Shown: one piece after another, positions 10,990-62,121 of the stretch | How the letters are laid out: each line of letters starts with the position of its first letter | Position numbering within the stretch: position 1 is the first letter of the stretch | From: Ruegeria marina | Lineage (GTDB): Bacteria; Pseudomonadota; Alphaproteobacteria; Rhodobacterales; Rhodobacteraceae | Length of the DNA: 64,000 nucleotides | Reading direction: 5' to 3' | NCBI RefSeq assembly: GCF_900101475.1 | Contig: NZ_FMZV01000007.1 | Location: 1-64,000, forward strand | Translations under genes and position numbers: made by a program | Notes under the pieces: model-generated | Told to the model about the DNA's origin: nothing | What the model saw: the letters and a program-made list of their open reading frames with translations, nothing else | Database searches by the model: none

Positions 10990-13134
10990 TCAGGCGAAGG
11001 CCCGGCCTGCGGCCACATGCGTCTTGAGGATATTCGGCGGGGCAAAGCGTGCTCCATACTTGCCTGCCAGTTCCTCGCACCGGGCCAGGAACCGGGCCGG
11101 GCCATAGGTGTTGACGTACTGGATGTAGCCACCAGTATGGACCGGGGCTCCGATCCCAAGGATCGAACCGACATTGCCGTCCTCGACCGTGCGGAGAACG
11201 CCTTCCTCCAGGCAGCGCAGGCTTTCCAGCACGGCCCGGAACAGGATGCGGTCCTTGATATCCTCGTCCGGGATATCGGCCCCCTCCCTGCGCCAGGCGG
11301 CAAGGCCGGGCCAGATCGTCTTGCCCTGCGTGTCGTAGTCGTAGAACCCCTTGCCGGTGGCGCGGCCGTGGCGGCCGTGCTGGCTGATCATCTCGGCCAG
11401 CATGGCGCGGGCGGCGGGGTTCTGTTCCTTCTCGGGGTCCAAGAGGCCCATTTCGACCTGGGTGTCGTAGATGTCGGTCACCAGCTTGATCTGCACCTCG
11501 TCCAGCAGCGTCAACATGCCGGTGGGCATGCCGGTCAGGCGCGACAGGTTGTCGATGCGCACCGGGTCATGGCCCTCGGTCACCAGTTCCACCGCTTCGA
11601 TGATCTTGGTGCCGATGGTGCGCGATGTATAGAAGCCGGTGCTGTCACCGACGATGATCGGAGTCTTGCCGATCTGGCGGGCAAAGTCGAAGGCGCGCGC
11701 CAGCGTCTCGTCGGAGGTCTTTTCACCGGCGATGATTTCCAGCAGCGGCATCTTGTCCACGGGCGAGAAGAAATGCAGGCCCACGAAGTTTTCCGGCCGC
11801 GCCGCGCCACTGGCCAGCCGGGTGATCGGCAGGGTCGATGTGTTGGAACCCCAGATGCCGTTTTCAGCGAGCAGCGCCTCGTGCTCGGCCAGCACCGCAT
11901 CCTTTATGTCGATCTTTTCGAACACCGCCTCGATGATCAGGTCACAGCCTTTCAGGGCCTCGGTCTGGTCGGTGGGGGTGATCAGCGCCAGCACCGCCTC
12001 ACGCTCCTCGGCGCTCATCCGGCCCTGCTTGCCTCGCTTGTCCAAGAGACCGGCGGTATAGGCCTTGCCGCGTTCCGCCGCCTCCATCGTCCGGTCCTTG
12101 AGCACCACGGGCAACCCGGACATGGCGGCGGAAAACGCGATGCCCTGGCCCATCATGCCCGCGCCCAGTATGCCCAGACGCTGTACCCTGGAGGGCGGAA
12201 CACCCTTGGGCCGGCTGGCCCCGCCGTTGACCTTGTTCATGCCGAAGAACAGCGTCTCGATCATGTTCTTGGTGCTGGCCAGAGGGATCAGCGACACGAA
12301 CCGGCGGCTTTCGTATCGGGTGGCGGTGTCGAAATCGACCTTGCCCGCCGCCTCGGTCATGATGTCGAGGATGCGCGCGGGCGCAGGCATCAGCCCGCGC
12401 GTCTTCTTGTAGAGCATCGCGGCAGCGCCCGCGATGCGGGTCATGTTATGCGGTGCGGTCGAGGGGCCGCCGGGGATCTTGTAGCCCTTGGTATCCCAGG
12501 GCTGGGTCGCCGCCGCCGCATCCCCCTGCACCGAAAGGATATAATCGCGGGCGCGTGTCAACAACTGGTCGGCGGGGACCACCTGATGGATCAGTCCGGC
12601 CTTGAGTGCCTTTTCGGGCGAGACCTGCCGTCCTTCGAGCAGAAAGGGCATCGCACCTTCCAGCCCCAGCATCCAGGTCAGGCGGACGACGCCGCCCCCA
12701 CCGGGCAACAGGCCCAGTGTGACCTCGGGCAGGCCGATCCTGGTTTTTGGGTTGTCGGCGGCGATGCGGTGGTTGCAGGCCAGACAGATCTCGAACCCGC
12801 CCCCAAGTGCGGCGCCGTTGATCGCGGCGACATGGGGCACGGGCTGTTTCTCCATCCGGCGCATCACGGCCTTGGTCGCCTCGACCGATTCAAACAACGC
12901 CTCGACCCCGTCAGGCTCGATGCTTTTCAGCATCTTCAGATCGCCGCCGGCAAAGAACGTGTCCTTGGCCGAGGTCCAGATCACGCCTTTCAGGTCCGGT
13001 TCGGCCTCGATCCGGTCCATGGTTCCGGCAAAGAGCGGCCAGAACTCGGCATTCATCGCGTTGACCGGCCCGTCCATGTCCATGGTCACGGTGACGATGC
13101 CGTCGGCATCCTTGTCGTAGTGAAACTCACCCAT
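10990..13134 (-). CDS. fadJ: fatty-acid oxidation complex alpha subunit (enoyl-CoA hydratase / 3-hydroxyacyl-CoA dehydrogenase)
   Basis: A 714-residue bifunctional beta-oxidation enzyme. The N-terminal crotonase domain has both catalytic acids (Glu115 in GGGFEI and Glu137 in LPEVTLG). The NAD-binding site follows as GAGMMGQG (324-331), then the dehydrogenase domain with HFFSP. It hydrates 2-enoyl-CoA and oxidises the 3-hydroxyacyl-CoA. It lies 12 bp downstream of the thiolase gene on the same strand, giving a fadA-fadJ type operon that completes the beta-oxidation cycle. Confidence 0.93.
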   Translation of the reverse strand: MGEFHYDKDADGIVTVTMDMDGPVNAMNAEFWPLFAGTMDRIEAEPDLKGVIWTSAKDTFFAGGDLKMLKSIEPDGVEALFESVEATKAVMRRMEKQPVPHVAAINGAALGGGFEICLACNHRIAADNPKTRIGLPEVTLGLLPGGGGVVRLTWMLGLEGAMPFLLEGRQVSPEKALKAGLIHQVVPADQLLTRARDYILSVQGDAAAATQPWDTKGYKIPGGPSTAPHNMTRIAGAAAMLYKKTRGLMPAPARILDIMTEAAGKVDFDTATRYESRRFVSLIPLASTKNMIETLFFGMNKVNGGASRPKGVPPSRVQRLGILGAGMMGQGIAFSAAMSGLPVVLKDRTMEAAERGKAYTAGLLDKRGKQGRMSAEEREAVLALITPTDQTEALKGCDLIIEAVFEKIDIKDAVLAEHEALLAENGIWGSNTSTLPITRLASGAARPENFVGLHFFSPVDKMPLLEIIAGEKTSDETLARAFDFARQIGKTPIIVGDSTGFYTSRTIGTKIIEAVELVTEGHDPVRIDNLSRLTGMPTGMLTLLDEVQIKLVTDIYDTQVEMGLLDPEKEQNPAARAMLAEMISQHGRHGRATGKGFYDYDTQGKTIWPGLAAWRREGADIPDEDIKDRILFRAVLESLRCLEEGVLRTVEDGNVGSILGIGAPVHTGGYIQYVNTYGPARFLARCEELAGKYGARFAPPNILKTHVAAGRAFA

Positions 13135-13146
13135 TCTGCCGCTCCC

Positions 13147-14355
<1,209 letters not shown>

Positions 14356-14444
14356 GACCATTCCTCCTGAGGGTTTGGGCGACAGCCTAGGGGCGCTGAG
14401 GCGAGGAACACAATGATCTGGCGGTGCAGAAAAATAGACATTAA

Positions 14445-15449
14445 GTGACAATCATGGCGGTCACGATCCCGGCGGCGATTGTCGCCAACATTCTCGAAGG
14501 CGCGGTTTCGCGTGGTGCCGATCCGGTGGGCATCCTGGCGCGGGCGGGTCTGTCCGGCGTTGTCGGTGCGCTGGAGGCGCCCGATTTCGTGCGCCTTGTC
14601 CGGGCGGTGACGCTGGCGCTGGATGACGAACTGGGGGGCTTACATCACCGCGCGCAGCGGGTTGGGACCCATGCGATCATGGCGGCCCATGTCAGCCATG
14701 CCGACACGCTGGGCGCGGCCTATGCGCGGGCGGTCGGGTTCATGGACCTGATGGACAATTCCTTTCGCTTTTCATTGCGGCAGAACGGCGCCAACCTGCT
14801 GTTCGAAATGACCCGCATTCCGGGGCGCGAGGTGCTGAACAGCACGGCGGTCGAGTTGGTTCTGGTGCTGATCAGCCGGATGCTGGCATGGATGGCGGGC
14901 AACCGTGGCGCGATCAACGGAGCCTGGTTCGATTACCCCGCGCCCGGCCATGCGGGGGCTTATCGCGCCATGTTTCACCGCGCGCCGATGCAATTCGGGC
15001 AGGTCAGCAATGGCCTGGCCATTCCGCTGTCCTTGTCCCGCCTGCCGGTCTTGCGCAGCGAGGATCAAGCAGCCGCTTATGCCCGCCGCACGCCGCTCGA
15101 TGCATTCCTGCCGCAGGATGGCACGACCGGACTGCCGCTGGAGGTGGCAGTCGCCGTCGAAAGCCTGCTTGGCGCAGACGGTCAGTTGCCGGACATGCCC
15201 AAGATCGCGGCGACACTGGGCATTGCGGCGCATACCTTGCGTCGCCGCCTGAAACGGGACGGGGTCGACTACTCGGATATCCGCAAGCAGGTTCGGCGCG
15301 ACCTGGCGGTCCGGCTTCTTACGACCACAGACGCAACCGTCGAAGACATCGCCGCCCGTACCGGGTTCAGCGAGGCAAGCGCGTTCATAAGGGCCTTCCG
15401 CAGCTGGACCGGCCTGACACCGCGCGCATACCGCATTTCCGAATTCTGA
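14445..15449 (+). CDS. AraC-family transcriptional regulator (OruR-like)
   Basis: A 334-residue regulator with an N-terminal arabinose-binding-type sensor region and a C-terminal double helix-turn-helix (about residues 232-330). The AraC signature is visible as DIAARTGFSEASAFIRAFRSWTG in two parts. The start is either GTG at 14445 or ATG at 14454; no clear ribosome site decides. It is divergent from fadA, and the 90-bp gap between them makes fadA-fadJ its likely target. Effector unknown. Confidence 0.85.
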   Translation: MTIMAVTIPAAIVANILEGAVSRGADPVGILARAGLSGVVGALEAPDFVRLVRAVTLALDDELGGLHHRAQRVGTHAIMAAHVSHADTLGAAYARAVGFMDLMDNSFRFSLRQNGANLLFEMTRIPGREVLNSTAVELVLVLISRMLAWMAGNRGAINGAWFDYPAPGHAGAYRAMFHRAPMQFGQVSNGLAIPLSLSRLPVLRSEDQAAAYARRTPLDAFLPQDGTTGLPLEVAVAVESLLGADGQLPDMPKIAATLGIAAHTLRRRLKRDGVDYSDIRKQVRRDLAVRLLTTTDATVEDIAARTGFSEASAFIRAFRSWTGLTPRAYRISEF

Positions 15450-19797: not shown

Positions 19798-21135
19798 CTA
19801 TTCGAGGGACAGGGTACGGACACGGGCGGCAAAGGCGCGGGCGTCACCCGGCGCGCTGCCCATCTGGCGCGCGGGGTCGGTCAGCGCGGCGGCGTCCAGT
19901 TGTGGCCAGTCCCGGGCGACCAGCACATCCAGAGGCGTTCCGCTGTCCGTGGCCTCCCTGCACAGGGCCTTGGTCGCGGCCTGCGCCTCGGGGCGCGGCA
20001 TCAGCCCGGCCAGCGCAAAGCTCAAGCCTTCGGCATGGATCAGGCCCAGTCCGCCGGTCAGCGCCGTGTTCATCGCCTGCGCGTCGGGTTCCAGCCCCCT
20101 GACCAGCGCGACCGCCGTCTGCGCGGCCGCCGCCGCGCCAAGAACGATCTGCGGCAGGCACATCCATTCGGTGAACCAGGCCGCCCCGTCGCGCTGGTGC
20201 CGGTGCATCGCCGCCCCATGCAGGACCGACAGCAGCCCGGCACCCTGCCGGGCCAGCGCCACCATCACCGCCGGGCCGACGGGGTTCTGTTTCTGCGGCA
20301 TGGTCGAGGATGAACCGGCGCCGCCCAGAGAGATCTCTCCGATCCCTGTCTGGGTCAGTTCGGTCAGGTCCTCGCCCATCTTGCCAAGCGCAAGACCGAC
20401 GCGGGCAAACCAGTCCGCCAGCCGCAGGACCGGCGTGCGGTCGGTGTGCCAGCTGCGCCCCGGATCGCCGAGATTGAGCAGCCTCGCCAGCGCCGCCCGG
20501 GTTTCCGCGGCTTTCGGGCCAAGCGCCGAGGCGGTGCCCGCCGCACCCGCCAGCGACACCACCAGACAGGCCCGGCGCAGCTCCGGCAATTCCCCCAGCA
20601 GGTCGACCAGCGGCGCGCCCCAGGCGGCGACCAGCGCACCGAAACTGGTGGGCGTCGCGTGCTGCCCATAGGTGCGCGCGGCCATCGGCAGGTCGGCATG
20701 CGCCTCGGCCAGACCCGCAAGCGCGGTCAGGAGCTGGCCCAGATCACGCTCGACCACCGACACTGCCTGCCGCAGCCGCAGCATCAGCCCGGTGTCGAGA
20801 ATATCCTGCGAGGTCGCGCCCCAATGCACGTATTGCGCATGTTCGGGGGCCTGCATCTCGGTTCGGAACGCCGCGACCAGCGCCGGGACCGAGACCCCGT
20901 TGGCGCCCGTTGCCTGCGCCAGCGCGCCGGGGTCGAGATGTATTTCCATCGCCGCGCGCTGGATCGCCCCGGCGCTATCCTGTGGAATCACGCCCAGTTC
21001 GCCCTGTGCCTTTGCCAGCATGCCCTCGGTCAGCAGCATGGCGCGGATCTCGGCACCATCGGTGAATAGACGCCCGACCTCGGCGGTCTGGAAAAGCCGC
21101 GCCAGATGCGCGCTGTCAAAGACCGATGCGGCCAT
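19798..21135 (-). CDS. pcaB: 3-carboxy-cis,cis-muconate cycloisomerase
   Basis: A 445-residue fumarase/aspartase-superfamily protein carrying the signature GSSSTMPQKQNPV (about residues 275-287) and HWGATSQDILDT. It cyclises beta-carboxymuconate, the product of PcaGH, to gamma-carboxymuconolactone. The ATG at 21135 overlaps the stop of the preceding esterase gene (TGATG), so translation is coupled. It lies with pcaD here, about 38 kb from pcaGHC and pobA in the same window, so the protocatechuate pathway is split between two operons. Confidence 0.88.
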   Translation of the reverse strand: MAASVFDSAHLARLFQTAEVGRLFTDGAEIRAMLLTEGMLAKAQGELGVIPQDSAGAIQRAAMEIHLDPGALAQATGANGVSVPALVAAFRTEMQAPEHAQYVHWGATSQDILDTGLMLRLRQAVSVVERDLGQLLTALAGLAEAHADLPMAARTYGQHATPTSFGALVAAWGAPLVDLLGELPELRRACLVVSLAGAAGTASALGPKAAETRAALARLLNLGDPGRSWHTDRTPVLRLADWFARVGLALGKMGEDLTELTQTGIGEISLGGAGSSSTMPQKQNPVGPAVMVALARQGAGLLSVLHGAAMHRHQRDGAAWFTEWMCLPQIVLGAAAAAQTAVALVRGLEPDAQAMNTALTGGLGLIHAEGLSFALAGLMPRPEAQAATKALCREATDSGTPLDVLVARDWPQLDAAALTDPARQMGSAPGDARAFAARVRTLSLE

Positions 21136-21848
21136 CAGAACTGTCCTTCGATCCGGGTCAGCAGGCGCGCCAGACCTTGCGGGTCGGCAAAGAAAGGCGA
21201 GTGAGAACTGTTCATGACATGAACCCGTTCGGGTGGCCAGTCCGCGGTCATCTCTTCCTGGTACTCGGGGGGAATGGTCCGGTCGTCGGCGCAGCGGATA
21301 TAGGATTTGGGCACGCTCTGGTAGCGTTCTGTCATGATGAGCGGTGTGCTCTGCGGTTTGATCGCTTGCGGGCAGAGGCGCGGCTGGGCGTAAAGAACCC
21401 GGTCTGCCGGGCAATCGTGATAGAACAGTGCCGGTACGTGCTCGGGGTCGATGGTAAAGGACAGCCCGTCGTCGGATTTCACCACCGCCTGCAACAGAGG
21501 TTGCCGCTTGGCCCGCTTGCGCATCTCGACCATGGAAAGGCCCGAGATCGGCACATAGGCGCACAGGTAGATCAGGCCGCGCATCGCCTTGGGATCATGT
21601 TCCGCCGCCGCGCTGATCGGATAGCCGCCCCAGCTGTGCCCCACGATCAACGTATCGGGTGTGCTGGCCGCCAGCACTGCGTCGCGGCAGCTCTCCAGAG
21701 TGACTTCGGCGATTGGCGTCACATCGGACCCGTGGCTTGGCATGTTGATCGCGCGCACCGTATGGCCGCGCTCTTGCAGCGCGGGGATCAGGTCGCGCCA
21801 GCACCATGCCCCATGGCAGGATCCATGCACCAACAGGAAATCGGCCAT
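21135..21848 (-). CDS. alpha/beta hydrolase, methyl-salicylate-esterase-like
   Basis: A 237-residue hydrolase beginning LLVHGSCHGAWCW, with the nucleophile elbow GHSWGGY (about Ser96) and the catalytic His in NSSHSPFF near the C-terminus. This pattern matches the plant MES/hydroxynitrile lyase-like esterase group. It lies between pcaD (18 bp upstream) and pcaB (overlapping), so it is co-translated with two protocatechuate-branch genes. It may release a hydroxybenzoate or protocatechuate from an ester, but the substrate is inferred from position only. The start at 21848 follows GAAAGGAGA. Confidence 0.78.
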   Translation of the reverse strand: MADFLLVHGSCHGAWCWRDLIPALQERGHTVRAINMPSHGSDVTPIAEVTLESCRDAVLAASTPDTLIVGHSWGGYPISAAAEHDPKAMRGLIYLCAYVPISGLSMVEMRKRAKRQPLLQAVVKSDDGLSFTIDPEHVPALFYHDCPADRVLYAQPRLCPQAIKPQSTPLIMTERYQSVPKSYIRCADDRTIPPEYQEEMTADWPPERVHVMNSSHSPFFADPQGLARLLTRIEGQF

Positions 21849-21865
21849 GCCTGCGTCTCCTTTCT

Positions 21866-22654
21866 TCAGATATGACCCGTTTCGCGGATGAACTGAACCA
21901 GCCGGGCGGCATAGGCCTCTGGTTGTTCCACGCAGGGCAGGTGGCCCGCTTTGCGGATCAGATGGAACTGCGAACCCGGGATCAGATCCACGGTTTCGCG
22001 GACCAGATCGGGCGGGGTGGCGCCATCCTCGTCCCCGGCGATGCCCAGGCAGGGCAGGCGCAGCCCGCTGGTCGGCGTGTAGAAATCCGTGCCCGATATT
22101 GCCGCGCTGCATCCGGCATACCCCTGTGCCGGCTGTCGCACCAGCATGTTGCGCCAGAGTCCCAGTTCCGGCGTGGCCCGGAACCCGCGCGAGAACCAGC
22201 GTTCCATGACGGCATCGGCCAGCGATTCGATCCCGCCCGCCCGCACCGCCGCAATCCGCTGTTCCCACATCTCCTTGGTGCCGATCTTGGCCCCGGTGTT
22301 CGACAGCACCAGCGCGCGCACTTGGTCGAGCCGCTTGACGGCCAGCCCCTGGCCGATCATGCCCCCGATGGAGAGCCCCACGAACAGCGCCTCGCGCACC
22401 TCGAGCATGTCGAGCAGCCGTTCGACATCGCGCACCAGTGCGCCCATCGTATAGGGCGCGTCTGGTGCGTCGCTCAATCCATGGCCGCGCTTGTCATAGC
22501 GGATCAGTTTCAGTCCGGCAGGCAGATGGGGCAGGATCGGATCCCAGAGCCGCAGATCGGTGCCGAGCGAATTGGCGAATACCACCGGTGCCCCGCCCGG
22601 ATCGCCATCGATCCTGTAGTGAAGCCGGATATCCCCCAGATCGGCAAACCGCAT
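21866..22654 (-). CDS. pcaD: 3-oxoadipate enol-lactonase
   Basis: A 262-residue alpha/beta hydrolase that opens beta-ketoadipate enol-lactone to beta-ketoadipate. The opening VVFANSLGTDLRLWDP and the nucleophile elbow GLSIGGMIGQ (about Ser96) are typical of PcaD. The catalytic Asp and His are in GDEDGATPP and AGHLPCVEQP. It is the first gene of pcaD-esterase-pcaB. Two dyad sequences lie upstream (22695-22737). Confidence 0.9.
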   Translation of the reverse strand: MRFADLGDIRLHYRIDGDPGGAPVVFANSLGTDLRLWDPILPHLPAGLKLIRYDKRGHGLSDAPDAPYTMGALVRDVERLLDMLEVREALFVGLSIGGMIGQGLAVKRLDQVRALVLSNTGAKIGTKEMWEQRIAAVRAGGIESLADAVMERWFSRGFRATPELGLWRNMLVRQPAQGYAGCSAAISGTDFYTPTSGLRLPCLGIAGDEDGATPPDLVRETVDLIPGSQFHLIRKAGHLPCVEQPEAYAARLVQFIRETGHI

Positions 22655-56496: not shown

Positions 56497-56862
56497 TCAT
56501 CCGGCCAGTTTTTGTCCCAACAGGAAGGCCGCGACGCAGAGCGCGACGCTGGCAAGGATGTTGCCCGCCGCGGTCAGGATCGTGCGCGAGCGATGCAGGT
56601 CCAGCGTCTGGTAGGCAAAGCTGGAAAATGTGGTCAGCCCCCCGCAAAAGCCGAACACAAGCCGGCGCGCGTCTTCGCTGACGGCTGCGCCGACGGCGTC
56701 CAGATGCCCCAGCCAAAGGCCCAGCAGCAGCGTACCCGCGACGTTCACGGCAAGCGTCGCCAGCGGCAGGTCATGGGTGATGCGGCGCGCGGTCCAGTGC
56801 CTGAGCACCGCGCCCAAACCGCCGCCAAGGGCAAAGAGGAGATGCAGGTAAAGGCCGCTCAT
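56497..56862 (-). CDS. crcB: fluoride channel Fluc/CrcB, second copy
   Basis: A 121-residue, four-helix membrane protein. GGGLGAVLRHW near the N-terminus, NVAGTLLLG and GFCGGLTTFSSF (about residues 71-82, with the Phe box and Na site) are the Fluc signatures. It exports toxic fluoride by passive conductance. It overlaps the first copy by 4 bp. Confidence 0.93.
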   Translation of the reverse strand: MSGLYLHLLFALGGGLGAVLRHWTARRITHDLPLATLAVNVAGTLLLGLWLGHLDAVGAAVSEDARRLVFGFCGGLTTFSSFAYQTLDLHRSRTILTAAGNILASVALCVAAFLLGQKLAG

Positions 56863-57233
56863 CGCGCCTCTCGGCGGCGTCCAACCGCCTCGCCCAGAAC
56901 CGCCGCGGCAAGACCGGCGGCGATCTCCAGCGCCATGGCGCCAAGTCCCGTGGTCCAGCCCTCCAGCCGGACCATCCGGTCAAGCTCGAAGATGAACGAG
57001 GAAAAGGTCGAAAGCCCGCCGCAGAACCCCACCGCGCCCAGGTGCAGCACATGCGCATGGACCCGGTTCCGCACGGCAAAAAGCCAGCCCAGGATCAGGC
57101 AGGACACGGTGTTGATGCCAAATGTCGCCGTCACCAGCGGCAGTCCGGGGATCTCCAGCGCAAGCGCCTCGCGCAGCAGCGAGCCCGCCGCGCCGCCCGC
57201 GAATACCGCCAGATACATGCCTGCCCGTGTCAC
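56859..57233 (-). CDS. crcB: fluoride channel Fluc/CrcB, first copy
   Basis: A 124-residue, four-helix protein with GGAAGSLLREA, FGINTVSCLILG and GFCGGLSTFSSFIFE (about residues 69-83). Tandem, non-identical Fluc genes with overlapping ends usually make a heterodimeric channel. No fluoride-riboswitch motif is recognisable in the 69 bp upstream. Confidence 0.92.
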   Translation of the reverse strand: MTRAGMYLAVFAGGAAGSLLREALALEIPGLPLVTATFGINTVSCLILGWLFAVRNRVHAHVLHLGAVGFCGGLSTFSSFIFELDRMVRLEGWTTGLGAMALEIAAGLAAAVLGEAVGRRREAR

Positions 57234-57302: not shown

Positions 57303-58127
57303 TCAGGCCAGCGCGAGGATCTCGCGCGCCTCTTGCCAACTGGCTACCGGGCGTTCGTATTTCTCGCAAAGCTCCGCTGCCCGCCGCACCAGCGCCGCGT
57401 TCGATGGCGCCAGCCGGTCGCGGTCCAGCCGCACGTTATCCTCAAGCCCCGTGCGCGTGTGACCCCCCGCCGCGATGGCCCATTCGTTGACCACGATCTG
57501 GTTCGGGCCGATTCCTGCGGCGCACCATTCCGCCTGCGGCGCGCGGCTCTGCATCATGTGAACGTAGAAATCGAACACCTCGCGGTCGGCGGGCATGGCG
57601 TTCTTCACCCCCAGCACGAACTGCACGTAGAGCTTGCCGTACAGCTGCCCTTTCCCATGCATGTCGATGGCGCGCAGGATATGGCTCAGGTCAAAGGCCT
57701 CGATCTCCGGCGTCACGTGATAGGTCCGCATCTCGGAGGCCAGCCAGTCGACCAGATCGGGCGGGTTTTCATAGACCCGCGTCGGAAAGTTGTTTGACCC
57801 CACCGACAGCGAGGCCATGTCAGGCGCGAGCGGCAGCATGCCGCCCCGCGCCTGTCCCGCCCCTGACCGGCCGCCGGTCGAGAATTGCACGATCATGCCG
57901 GGGCAGTGCTGCCGCAGCCCCTCCAGCAGCCGACCGAACCGCTCGGGGTCGCTGGTGGGCGTCTGGTCGTCGTTGCGCACATGGCAATGGGCGATGCTTG
58001 CGCCCGCCTCGAACGCCTCTTGCGTGCTTTCGACCTGTTCTTCGACCGTGATCGGCACCGCCGGGTTGTTGGCCTTGGTGGGCAGCGACCCGGTGATGGC
58101 GACGCAGATGATACAGGGTTTGGTCAT
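57303..58127 (-). CDS. beta-keto acid cleavage enzyme (BKACE, DUF849)
   Basis: A 274-residue TIM-barrel zinc enzyme; HCHVRNDD (about residues 47-54) supplies two zinc ligands. The family condenses a beta-keto acid with acetyl-CoA to give acetoacetate and a new acyl-CoA; the founding activity is 3-keto-5-aminohexanoate cleavage in lysine fermentation. Here it is the last gene of pobA-pcaC-pcaH-pcaG, 14 bp after pcaG, so beta-ketoadipate is an attractive substrate. This is inferred from context. Confidence 0.85.
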   Translation of the reverse strand: MTKPCIICVAITGSLPTKANNPAVPITVEEQVESTQEAFEAGASIAHCHVRNDDQTPTSDPERFGRLLEGLRQHCPGMIVQFSTGGRSGAGQARGGMLPLAPDMASLSVGSNNFPTRVYENPPDLVDWLASEMRTYHVTPEIEAFDLSHILRAIDMHGKGQLYGKLYVQFVLGVKNAMPADREVFDFYVHMMQSRAPQAEWCAAGIGPNQIVVNEWAIAAGGHTRTGLEDNVRLDRDRLAPSNAALVRRAAELCEKYERPVASWQEAREILALA

Positions 58128-58141
58128 GGCTTTCTCCCGGT

Positions 58142-58762
58142 TCAGATGTCGAAGAACACCGTCTCGTTCTCACCCTGCAATCGGATGACGAACCGGTAGA
58201 CCACCTTGCCGTCCTTCTCGTTGCGCTTGGCGATCAGCGTCTGGCGGCGGTTCTCCCACTCGATCATGTTGATCACCGGGTCGGCGGCATTGGCCTCGGT
58301 CTCGTCTTCGAAATAGAGCCTTGTGTTGAGGCCGACATTGATGCCGCGCGCCACGATCCACAGGTTGATATGCGGTGCCTGCACCGCTCCGTTCCTGCCC
58401 GGGACTGCCCCCGGCTTGACGGTGTCGAAGCCCCACTCGCCGGTGGTAAAATCGGTTATCACCCGGCCCCAGCCGCGAAACCCCTCCTCGACCGCGCCCG
58501 CGTGTTCGGGATGGGCGTAAATGCCGTCGGCATTGGCCTGCCAGGCTTCCAGCAGCACGTCCTTGACCGGGCTGCCGGTGCCGTCGATCACCAACCCCTC
58601 GACCCGGATTCGTTCGCCGCGCGCATTTGGCCCGGCGATGTCCCAGCCCAGTTCCTGCTTGTAGATGTCGAACCCGGCGGCTCCCGGTGCCAGCCCGATA
58701 TGCACATAGGGCCCGGCGGTCTGCGACGGGGTTTCCTTGAGGTATTCAAGAGACTGCGGCAT
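58142..58762 (-). CDS. pcaG: protocatechuate 3,4-dioxygenase alpha subunit
   Basis: A 206-residue intradiol dioxygenase subunit (SQTAGPYVHIGLAPG, then EAWQANADGIYAHPE). The alpha chain lacks the iron ligands and contributes part of the substrate pocket of the PcaGH protomer. It begins at 58762, where its ATG overlaps the pcaH stop. Confidence 0.94.
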   Translation of the reverse strand: MPQSLEYLKETPSQTAGPYVHIGLAPGAAGFDIYKQELGWDIAGPNARGERIRVEGLVIDGTGSPVKDVLLEAWQANADGIYAHPEHAGAVEEGFRGWGRVITDFTTGEWGFDTVKPGAVPGRNGAVQAPHINLWIVARGINVGLNTRLYFEDETEANAADPVINMIEWENRRQTLIAKRNEKDGKVVYRFVIRLQGENETVFFDI

Positions 58763-59490
58763 CAGTTCCCCTCCAGACGGTTTTCGAACAGGGTCGACCG
58801 GCGCCCGCGCAGCACCACGTCGAACTTGTAGGCGATGGTATCCAGCGGGATCGTTGCGTTCAGGTCCAGGGGCGCGATCAGCCGGTCGATCGCCGCGGGA
58901 TCGGGAATGGTGTTCACGATCGGGCATTTCGCGATCAGCGGATCGCCCTCGAAATAGCATTGCGTGATCAGCCGCTGCGCGAAGGCCGTGCCGAAGATCG
59001 ACATGTGGATATGCGCCGGCCGCCAGTTGTTGACCCAGTTGCGCCAGGGGTAGGCGCCGGGCTTCACCGTGCGGAAATAGTAATACCCGTTCTCGTCAGT
59101 CAGGGTCCGGCCGCAGCCGCCGAAATTCGGGTCGATGGGCGCCAGATAGGTGTCCTTCTTGTGCCGGTACCGCCCGCCCGCATTGGCCTGCCAGATCTCG
59201 ACCAGAGTATGGGGCAGGGGGCGGCCGTTCTCGTCCAGAACCCTGCCATGCAGGATGATCCGCTCGCCGATCGCGCTCTCGCCCGGCTTGGCATAGTTGT
59301 AGATCAGGTCGTTGTCGCCCCCGTCGATGTCATTGTGACCGAACACCGGGCCGGTGATCTCGCTCACCGTGTTCTCCAGGCTGATCAGCGCCTGCCGGGG
59401 CGAGCGCGCCACCGAGGTCTTGTAGTCGGGAACATAGGCAGGCGGGTGCCACTCCCTGTCCCTTTGGTAGAATTCACCGGGTTTGAGCAT
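58762..59490 (-). CDS. pcaH: protocatechuate 3,4-dioxygenase beta subunit
   Basis: A 242-residue catalytic subunit that opens protocatechuate between the hydroxyls to beta-carboxymuconate. The ferric ligands are visible: Tyr108 (RYRHK), Tyr147 (GAYPWRN), His160 and His162 (PAHIH). As I recall, these match the Pseudomonas enzyme numbering exactly. It lies between pcaC and pcaG in the pobA-led operon. Confidence 0.96.
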
Positions 59491-59537: not shown

Positions 59538-59915
59538 CTATTCCTGTTCCATCTCGGCATAAGTCTGCTTGGCCAGCTTCAGCGCCTGGTTGGCGCGCGG
59601 CACACCGGCATAGATCGCCACATGCTGGAACGCCTCCAGCACGTCCTGCTTGCTGGCACCGGTGCGGGCGGTGGCGCGGATATGCATGGGGATCTCCTCG
59701 AAATTCCCCATCGCCGCCAACAGCGCCAGCGTCAGCATCGACCGTTCCCGGTCGCTGATCCCGCCCGAGGCCCAAACCGTGCCCCAGGCGCCCTCGGTGA
59801 TCAGCGTCTGGAACGGCACGTCGAACTCGGTCTTGGCCGCCTCGGCCCGGTCGACATAGGCATCGCCCAGCACCTTGCGGCGCACCTTCATTCCGTTGTC
59901 ATAGCGTTCGGACAT
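59538..59915 (-). CDS. pcaC: 4-carboxymuconolactone decarboxylase
   Basis: A 125-residue AhpD-like fold enzyme that decarboxylates gamma-carboxymuconolactone to the enol-lactone used by Pca[20 protein letters not shown] and [13 protein letters not shown] are typical. It stands alone and is not fused to PcaD as in some bacteria. It follows pobA by 22 bp. Confidence 0.94.
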
Positions 59916-59937
59916 CCGTCTTCCTTTCCGCTGTGGC

Positions 59938-61107
59938 CTAGTAGGGCAGACCGACATAGTTCTGTGCAAGCACCGTCTGCGCATCCCGGCTGTCGCGCAG
60001 GAATTCCACTTCGGCATGCTGGATCTTCAGGTCGAACTCCGACTGATGCGGGAACCGGTGCAGCAATGTGGTCATCCACCAGCTGAACCGCTGCGTCTTC
60101 CACACCCGCGCCAGCGCCTTTTCCGAATAGCGGTCGATGCCCTCGGTCTCGCCGGTCTCGTAGACCTGCACCAGCGCGTGATACAGGTAATGGATGTCGC
60201 TCGCCGCCGTGTTCAGCCCCTTGGCCCCGGTCGGCGGCACGATATGGGCCGCATCCCCGCACAGAAACAGTCGCCCCCAGCGCATCGGCTCGCAGACGAA
60301 CGACCTGAGCGGTGCGATGGATTTCTCGATCGACGGGCCAGTTACCAGCCGCTCCGCCGCCTCGGCCGGAATGCGCCGTTTCAGCTCCTGCCAGAACGCC
60401 GCATCGGTCCAGTCCTCGGCATGGTCGGACAACGAACACTGGATGTAGTACCGGCTCAGGTTGGCGTTGCGCATCGAACACAGAGCAAACCCGCGATCCG
60501 ACCCGGCATAGATCAACTCGTCATTCACCGGCGGGGTCTCCGACAGGATGCCCAGCCAGCCAAACGGATAGACCTTTTCGTATTCCCGCCGCACCGTCAG
60601 CGGGATCGTCTGGCGGCTGATCCCGTGGAACCCGTCGCAGCCCGCCACATAGTCGCAGTCGATCCGGTGCTCGGTGCCGTCCAACTGATAGGTGACATAG
60701 GGCGCGGTGCTGTCGGCCCCATGAATTTCGACATGTTCGGTGTTGAACACGATCTTGGCCCCGGACGCCGCGCGCGCATCATACAGATCGCGCGTCACCT
60801 CGGTCTGGCCATAGACAACCACATGATTGCCGGTCAGCTTCTGGAAATTGACACCGAACTGCATGTCGCCATAGGAAATCACTGTGCCGTCATGGATATA
60901 GCTTTCGCGATCCATCCGCTCGGCCACGCCCGCCTCGCGCATCAGGTTGACAAAGCCCACCTCCAGCACCCCGGCCCGAATGCGGCCCAGCACGTATTCG
61001 CGGGTCTTGCGCTCCAGCACCACGGTGTCGATGCCCTTGCGGTGCAACAGCTGCCCCAAAAGCAACCCTGATGGTCCTCCGCCAATAATGACAACCTGAG
61101 TCCGCAT
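59938..61107 (-). CDS. pobA: 4-hydroxybenzoate 3-monooxygenase
   Basis: A 389-residue flavin monooxygenase making protocatechuate from 4-hydroxybenzoate with NADPH and O2. The FAD site is VIIGGGPSGLLLGQLL (about residues 5-20), the DG motif is GCDGFHG, and GDAAHIVPPTGAKGLN (about residues 286-301) is the second FAD motif. It is the first gene of the pobA-pcaC-pcaH-pcaG-BKACE operon and divergent from pcaQ. Confidence 0.96.
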   Translation of the reverse strand: MRTQVVIIGGGPSGLLLGQLLHRKGIDTVVLERKTREYVLGRIRAGVLEVGFVNLMREAGVAERMDRESYIHDGTVISYGDMQFGVNFQKLTGNHVVVYGQTEVTRDLYDARAASGAKIVFNTEHVEIHGADSTAPYVTYQLDGTEHRIDCDYVAGCDGFHGISRQTIPLTVRREYEKVYPFGWLGILSETPPVNDELIYAGSDRGFALCSMRNANLSRYYIQCSLSDHAEDWTDAAFWQELKRRIPAEAAERLVTGPSIEKSIAPLRSFVCEPMRWGRLFLCGDAAHIVPPTGAKGLNTAASDIHYLYHALVQVYETGETEGIDRYSEKALARVWKTQRFSWWMTTLLHRFPHQSEFDLKIQHAEVEFLRDSRDAQTVLAQNYVGLPY

Positions 61108-61197: not shown

Positions 61198-62121
61198 ATG
61201 ATCGACAGGCGTATCAAGTTCCGGCACATCCAGTGTTTTGTCGAAATCGCTCGCGAACGCAGCCTCAAAACCGCCGCCGAGAAACTGTTCCTGACCCAAC
61301 CGGCGATGTCCAAGACTTTGAAAGAGCTGGAAGAGATCGTCGGCGCCACCCTGATGCGGCGTAGCCGTTCGGGCGTAGACCTGACGCGACCGGGCGAGGT
61401 GTTCCTGCATTTCGCGCAGATGTCGATCGCCAGCCTGCAACAGGGGCTCGACGGGATCGAACTGGAAGGCCGGCGGCAAAAGGACAAGCTGTCGGTCGGC
61501 GCTCTGCCCAGCGTGGCGGCCCATCTGATGCCGCTTGTGGTGGCCGAATTCGCGCGCCTCGCCCCCAATGCTCTGCTGCGCATCCTCGACGGCCCGCACG
61601 GTTATCTGACCGAACGCTTGCGGCTCGGAGAGCTTGATCTGGTGATCGGCCGGCTTGGCCCTTCGGACACCATGCAGGGCATTTCCTTTACCCAGCTCTA
61701 CGACGAACAGGTGGTGTTCGTGGTGCGTCCGGGTCATCCGCTGTTGTCCGCCCCCGATCTGCGCCGCGTCGCAGACTGGCCGGTGATCTACCCGCCCGAA
61801 GGCGCGGCGATCCGGCCGCTGGTCGAACAGTTCCTGATCGCCAACGGGGTGGGGGAGTTTCCCAACCGTCTCGAAACCGTCTCGGGTGCCTTCGGCCGGG
61901 TGCATACGCGGCAATCCGATTGCGTCTGGATCATATCGCGCGGCGTGGTCGCCAACGAGATCGCCGAGGGCCGCCTGGTCGCGCTACCGTTTCGCACCGA
62001 ACTCACCCAGGGGCCGGTCGGGTTGATGACCCGGCCCGACCATCCCGAAACCCCGGTCCGGCAACTCTTTGCGCTGGCGGTGACCAACGTTTTGGCAGGA
62101 AAATCGTCACACATGACCTAA
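61198..62121 (+). CDS. pcaQ: LysR-family regulator PcaQ
   Basis: A 307-residue activator of protocatechuate genes. RRIKFRHIQCFVEIARERSL opens the helix-turn-helix (recognition region KLFLTQPAMSKTLKELE), followed by the effector domain. The sequence and its place opposite pobA-pcaCHG identify PcaQ, which responds to beta-carboxymuconate-type intermediates. Its stop codon lies inside an FNR-like box of the next transcript. Confidence 0.9.
   Translation: MIDRRIKFRHIQCFVEIARERSLKTAAEKLFLTQPAMSKTLKELEEIVGATLMRRSRSGVDLTRPGEVFLHFAQMSIASLQQGLDGIELEGRRQKDKLSVGALPSVAAHLMPLVVAEFARLAPNALLRILDGPHGYLTERLRLGELDLVIGRLGPSDTMQGISFTQLYDEQVVFVVRPGHPLLSAPDLRRVADWPVIYPPEGAAIRPLVEQFLIANGVGEFPNRLETVSGAFGRVHTRQSDCVWIISRGVVANEIAEGRLVALPFRTELTQGPVGLMTRPDHPETPVRQLFALAVTNVLAGKSSHMT

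Follow-up and report, generated by a model that had tools for sequence, protein, structure and literature searches.

It has already been proposed in print for other bacteria that a β-keto acid cleavage enzyme (BKACE) can form the ending of the β-ketoadipate pathway (2019, 2022 and 2025). In a study of Betaproteobacteria, a COG3246 protein encoded in the R. eutropha H16 catechol cluster was predicted to cleave β-ketoadipate, and its homologues were described as often encoded together with protocatechuate 3,4-dioxygenase genes (PMC6449761, 2019). A DUF849 gene was then reported to replace pcaIJF in Methylobacterium clusters, with reference to Bastard 2014 for a G4 class whose predicted substrate is β-ketoadipate (PMC8963497, 2022). 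PMC4922564 places β-ketoadipate in G3, gives "negatively charged" for G4 and stresses how promiscuous BKACEs are. Most recently, a one-step bypass was drawn, and the pcaHGBL and kce genes of M. nodulans, together with van genes, were moved into M. extorquens, which with these genes grew on protocatechuate (PMC12379598, 2025). In the openly licensed literature, as far as it was surveyed, we found no study in which a BKACE linked to pcaG had been tested genetically in Rhodobacteraceae.

Here we describe such a gene in Ruegeria marina (hereafter the host), located in a stretch of 64,000 nucleotides of contig NZ_FMZV01000007.1 (positions 1–64,000), which is referred to as the window. It has the same predicted role as the COG3246 gene of R. 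eutropha H16, but the latter belongs to the catechol branch and is regulated by CatM/BenM (PMC6449761). As in Methylobacterium, where cleavage of β-ketoadipate has been proposed, the DUF849 (kce) gene stands beside pcaG in a pca cluster without pcaIJF; in contrast to Methylobacterium, where kce is placed between pcaG and pcaB, the pcaB and pcaD genes of the host are located about 35 kb from the operon, inside the same window (PMC8963497; PMC12379598).

The pobA-BKACE operon and its last gene

The operon has the order pobA-pcaC-pcaH-pcaG-BKACE, with all genes on the minus strand. Its first gene, pobA (59938–61107), encodes 4-hydroxybenzoate 3-monooxygenase (TIGR02360, 704.4 bits; cut-off 538.7). 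It is followed by pcaC (59538–59915), encoding 4-carboxymuconolactone decarboxylase (TIGR02425, 191.6 bits as computed on ORF 59538–60017; cut-off 155.7), and by pcaH (58762–59490; TIGR02422, 373.2 bits; cut-off 296.4), with inferred starts at MSERYDNG and MLKPGEF, respectively. The next gene, pcaG (58142–58762), encodes the alpha subunit of protocatechuate 3,4-dioxygenase (TIGR02423, 259.7 bits; cut-off 126.25) and overlaps pcaH by ATGA. The last gene, BKACE (57303–58127), encodes a DUF849 protein of 274 aa, a predicted 3-oxoadipate:acetyl-CoA acetyltransferase. It begins 14 bp after the pcaG stop codon, and a Shine-Dalgarno-like GGGAGAA precedes its ATG. The open reading frame and the profile matches thus confirm the claim of the first-pass annotation that a BKACE gene closes the operon at this distance from pcaG; the span of 57303–58762 that it gave for BKACE contains the gene but also takes in pcaG. 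Divergently from pobA lies pcaQ (61198–62121, plus strand), encoding a LysR-type regulator (TIGR02424, 409.5 bits; cut-off 303.8).

Judging from the gene spacing, the five genes would be co-transcribed; a scan of the sequence for promoters and terminators gave matches no more numerous than in shuffles. We consider BKACE a real gene rather than a chance ORF because its product matches PDB entry 3chv and because the same position after pcaG is seen in other genomes. Directly downstream of it, at 56497–57233, two tandem genes for CrcB-like fluoride channels were found, the first narrowly over the TIGR00494 cut-off and the second matching a CrcB model below its cut-off.

The remaining pathway genes form a separate cluster on the minus strand. 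The product of pcaD (21866–22654), 3-oxoadipate enol-lactonase (TIGR02427, 340.5 bits; cut-off 255.85), would yield the proposed substrate of BKACE, and pcaB (19798–21135) scores 313.3 bits with TIGR02426, below the cut-off of 355.75, yet this is its best family match. The gene between them (21135–21866) encodes an alpha/beta hydrolase for which no specific family reached the cut-off. The window therefore encodes PobA, PcaGH, PcaB, PcaC and PcaD, as had been listed earlier, although not in one place. The companion claim, that neither a CoA-transferase nor a thiolase gene is visible, holds in so far as the profile search of the window found no PcaIJ and no full-score PcaF, but an acetyl-CoA C-acetyltransferase gene is present at 13147–14451 (PRK08242, 653.4 bits). 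Together with the gene of a multifunctional protein that resembles FadJ but scores below the FadJ cut-off, it makes up a β-oxidation-type pair at 10990–14451.

The BKACE protein matches Pfam family PF05853 over residues 4–273, that is, over its full length (307.8 bits; cut-off 24.8). Its match to the equivalog model NF053568, "3-oxoadipate:acetyl-CoA acetyltransferase", is also full-length and exceeds the cut-off of 350 bits, with a score of 488.6; three other BKACE models were matched, all below their cut-offs. The gene product is very probably a Zn-dependent BKACE of the predicted 3-oxoadipate subfamily. We take the name of NF053568 to refer to Cupriavidus necator H16. Among solved structures, 3chv (553.8 bits over 272 residues), 3fa5 (487.6) and 3no5 (413.1) are close to the protein in sequence, but they are titled DUF849 or uncharacterized proteins and their molecule names give no function.

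Kce (2y7d) is a more distant solved relative, belonging to the same family. In this enzyme, the Zn ligands are presumably His46, His48 and Glu230, the catalytic residues Arg226 and Asp231, and the residue that binds the amino group Glu14. In the alignment to 2y7d, residues H47, H49, E229, R225, D230 and E143 of the host protein occupy Zn-ligand or catalytic positions. None of the six varies in any of the 74 pcaG-linked proteins (73 plus that of the window), in any of the 34 other NF053568 proteins or in any of the 20 other BKACEs; being invariant in all three groups, they mark the BKACE family and not the substrate. The position of Glu14 is occupied by Leu15 in the host protein and by Val or Leu in all 74 pcaG-linked proteins, and since it is also non-acidic in the 20 control BKACEs, Val or Leu there separates these proteins from Kce only. 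Lysine fermentation of the Kce type was ruled out by this Leu residue together with the score of 247.2 bits with the Kce model NF052387, below its cut-off of 382. Three basic residues are typical of the subfamily, namely K18 (72/74), R94 (74/74) and R233 (74/74), the same residue being found in no more than 10% of the controls in each case. They are candidates to hold the far carboxylate of the substrate.

Distribution of pcaG-linked BKACE and PcaIJ genes

We analyzed the neighbourhood of the gene in two sets, the best 80 of 580 relatives in named genomes and a draw of 299 genomes from the host's phylum. Among the best 80 of 580 named-genome loci, pcaG is located within 1 kb of BKACE in 61 and within 8 kb in one more, two have a match to another intradiol dioxygenase, and 16 have none, some of these 16 loci ending close to BKACE. 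In the phylum sample, 24 genomes together carry 28 NF053568 copies that exceed the cut-off; besides the copy in the window there are 27 others, of which 12 adjoin pcaG, three are near another intradiol dioxygenase gene and 12 have none. As a control, 20 lower-scoring BKACEs were taken in rank order from the phylum sample, minus three split or partial rows: none of them is near pcaG and two are near another intradiol dioxygenase gene. Chance neighbourhood was ruled out by the absence of pcaG near the control genes. All 73 adjacent pcaG-BKACE pairs are co-directional, with a median gap of 36 bp between BLAST hits (range −4 to 792; at most 150 bp in 60 of the 73).

The copies without an intradiol dioxygenase gene within 8 kb (the 16 among the best 80 of 580, and the 12 of 27) and the promiscuity of BKACEs (PMC4922564) speak for another interpretation, that the enzyme uses some other β-keto acid, supplied by a side route, and belongs to the operon by co-regulation only. 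We consider this very improbable, given the equivalog score, the tight and conserved linkage to pcaHG and the pattern complementary to that of PcaIJ described below. In addition, some other NF053568 copies sit with pcaB, QuiC-like or catechol-dioxygenase-like genes. In a Roseovarius locus where pcaG is not adjacent (L038), a gene of the CMD family, BKACE and pcaB stand in a row; in another locus (L045), BKACE follows shikimate-dehydrogenase-like and QuiC-like genes, both below the cut-off of their best model (for QuiC, 654.4 against 1200).

PcaIJ was found inside the fetched locus, whose length varied, in two of the 73 pairs. In these, Halomonas L096 and the similar L163 (genome G086), BKACE stands beside pcaG together with pcaIJF, so BKACE can be an additional enzyme. 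In a third Halomonas locus, L092, BKACE lacks an adjacent pcaG but has pcaF and a gene for a CoA-transferase in its vicinity. All three loci thus carry both pathway endings in one cluster. In G050, a genome of the same family as G086, the BKACE frame is broken, and PcaIJ and PcaF genes are present.

In the phylum sample, pcaG was found over its cut-off in 58 genomes (74 with any pcaG match). We scored PcaIJ as a TIGR02429 match of at least 303 bits or a match to a type that we call Agrobacterium-like. The line of about 300 bits between PcaI-type and ScoA-type genes was set after the score gap of 276.4–303.8 had been seen, and genome G091 shows that it does not fully separate function. Of 13 pcaG genomes with BKACE beside pcaG, two have PcaIJ (G277, on other contigs, and G086, in the same cluster; the host is not among them), as against 33 of the 45 pcaG genomes without such a BKACE (Fisher p = 0.00027, in a test that ignores phylogeny). 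PcaIJ was not found in the other 12 of these 45 genomes either, so the absence of PcaIJ is not a sure sign of the BKACE ending. Four of the 12 (G083 and G238, of the host's family, G111 and G159) have a BKACE elsewhere in the genome; the rest are G016, G035, G046, G139, G200, G217, G287 and G297.

In named genomes with the pcaG-BKACE pair (50 of the 61), a PcaI-type gene as judged by TIGR02429 is absent from 45 and present in five, and 49 of the 50 have a TIGR02429 match over the family cut-off. A ScoA-type match was found in all 13 phylum-sample genomes with pcaG-adjacent BKACE but also in many others, and therefore serves as a consistency check only. In two loci that we guess to be Bradyrhizobium-like, the surroundings of pcaF yielded no recognisable transferase gene.

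Host transferases and thiolases and the proposed pathway ending

The first-pass annotation had suggested looking for pcaIJF in the full genome. In the host genome, no dedicated PcaIJ and no PcaI-type gene of either type (TIGR02429 at 303 bits or more, or Agrobacterium-like) was found, but it does contain, outside the window, a ScoAB pair and a thiolase of PcaF grade. The single TIGR02429 match (230.8 bits) has a B partner and stands beside a gene that by eye is topA-like. In the host's family, topA lies within the 8-kb stretch around ScoAB in nine of the 12 main copies fetched (two weaker second copies being left out), including all three from genomes without pcaG (G135, G226 and G235); ScoAB is present over the cut-off in three of the five genomes of the family without pcaG. 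Because it is linked to topA and kept in relatives without pcaG, the host ScoAB looks like a general 3-oxoacid transferase. Its ScoA is 44% identical to PcaI of pca cluster L116, 62% identical to the ScoA-type protein of L146 in G091 and 61–66% identical to several ScoA proteins encoded outside pca clusters. L146 (5563–11935) is a second pca cluster of G091 that has transferase genes of the ScoAB type, not the PcaIJ type, together with pcaF; enzymes of the ScoAB type, the host's included, may therefore be able to take 3-oxoadipate.

Only one host thiolase exceeds the cut-off for PcaF, 3-oxoadipyl-CoA thiolase (691.9 bits). It is encoded in a phenylacetate (paa) cluster, followed by paaA and, by eye, by further paa genes; it is linked neither to pca nor to CoA-transferase genes of the kind that a classical ending would employ. 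Directly before it, at L224 8131–11084 (host contig C29), lie genes for a ring-hydroxylating oxygenase and a CMD-family, PcaC-like protein. The latter was not assigned to pcaC; a similar gene precedes BKACE and pcaB in Roseovarius L038. The host also has an acetoacetyl-CoA synthetase (755.6 bits; cut-off 520.9).

From what is known of the family, the following scheme can be drawn. BKACE would convert 3-oxoadipate and acetyl-CoA to succinyl-CoA and acetoacetate. Acetoacetate would be activated either by the general ScoAB, with use of succinyl-CoA and release of succinate, or by acetoacetyl-CoA synthetase, and a general thiolase would split acetoacetyl-CoA into two molecules of acetyl-CoA. With ScoAB, the net sum would equal that of PcaIJ and PcaF in the classical ending. 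The substrate, flux and fate of acetoacetate in vivo would be expected to follow this scheme.

The subfamily score, the linkage to pcaG, the pattern of PcaIJ, the lack of dedicated PcaIJ in the host and the location of ScoAB and thiolase elsewhere make BKACE the most likely end of the pathway. The association is real and well conserved, and BKACE is very probably the ending in the host; with high likelihood, BKACE ends the protocatechuate branch in place of dedicated PcaIJ and PcaF, while general enzymes finish acetoacetate. It is unlikely that classical chemistry carries the flux, with ScoAB serving as 3-oxoadipate CoA-transferase, the paa or a β-oxidation thiolase completing the route and BKACE being an accessory or overflow enzyme. 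Such a division of labour is favoured by the ScoAB-type genes inside the pca cluster of G091 and by the presence in the host of ScoAB and of the PcaF-grade thiolase next to a CMD-family gene; against it, ScoAB sits by topA and is retained in relatives without pcaG, the thiolase lies among paa genes, and the gene after pcaG is BKACE, not ScoAB.

The view that BKACE replaces PcaIJ and PcaF agrees with the subfamily match, with its place after pcaHG in many genomes and with the finding of PcaIJ in only two of 13. Its PcaF part oversimplifies matters, since the 3-oxoadipyl-CoA thiolase of the paa cluster and a potentially serviceable ScoAB are retained in the genome. Annotation and flux models that seek only pcaIJF would score the pathway of many marine bacteria as incomplete, and the BKACE ending alters both the predicted product (acetoacetate along with succinyl-CoA) and the genes required for completion. 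Since the principle is already in print, the gain lies in the extent of its occurrence and in the ScoAB prediction.

Roseovarius mutants and further BKACE loci

The BKACE ending also offers an alternative reading of recent mutant data from a roseobacter, Roseovarius nubinhibens. In that study, inactivation of the candidate pcaI, ISM_RS03130, abolished growth on 4-hydroxybenzoate, and the ISM_RS03130 and ISM_RS03135 proteins were upregulated on this substrate, both in favour of classical chemistry (PMC12442348). By contrast, pcaF could be lost without visible effect, which argues against that chemistry, and a double mutant in pcaF and an acyltransferase gene grew to a lower final density. The authors invoke β-oxidation thiolases; to account for the residual consumption in the pcaI mutant, they propose that β-ketoadipate is turned into other metabolites, with Bastard among the works cited. 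The acetyl-CoA C-acetyltransferase ISM_RS07170 was up in the thiolase mutants and down in the wild type on 4-hydroxybenzoate (PMC12442348).

We tentatively suggest, at somewhat less than an even chance, that most pca-bearing Rhodobacteraceae end the pathway via BKACE and not via PcaIJ and PcaF, and that the "PcaIJ" of R. nubinhibens is the general acetoacetate:succinyl-CoA transferase, working downstream of BKACE. If so, BKACE makes acetoacetate, and this would account for the growth loss of the "pcaI" mutant, the silent loss of pcaF and the rise of the acetyltransferase in thiolase mutants. The "pcaI" phenotype, in particular, would also be expected if ScoAB is needed for acetoacetate. The downregulation of ISM_RS07170 in the wild type counts against the acetoacetate-transferase reading and for the classical one (PMC12442348). 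R. nubinhibens is not among the best 80 of 580 named-genome loci, and its BKACE reading is a proposal. What is new here is that the published mutants can be re-read, in a testable way, as acetoacetate-transferase phenotypes.

The host genome contains five BKACEs, two of them over the NF053568 cut-off. The second of these (497.2 bits; L176 5431–8670 on contig C15, outside the window) overlaps an alpha/beta hydrolase gene; a catechol-dioxygenase-like gene is located 1.5 kb from it and an HpaB-like monooxygenase gene further on, both below their family cut-offs. In G208, an NF053568 copy (L178 7487–10985) overlaps an intradiol dioxygenase gene, which itself follows a gene for an FAD-dependent aromatic-ring hydroxylase. 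Near this second BKACE of G208, an Fe-alcohol dehydrogenase resembles a maleylacetate reductase by eye, but it reached no NCBIfam cut-off and Pfam gives Fe-ADH only, so we do not propose a hydroxyquinol route. At L197 8294–10899 and L201 8201–10838, a BKACE of another subfamily lies about 1 kb or less from a catechol-dioxygenase-like gene. In both loci a gene that by eye is short-chain-dehydrogenase-like lies between the two, and they perhaps represent another ring-cleavage route ended by a BKACE.
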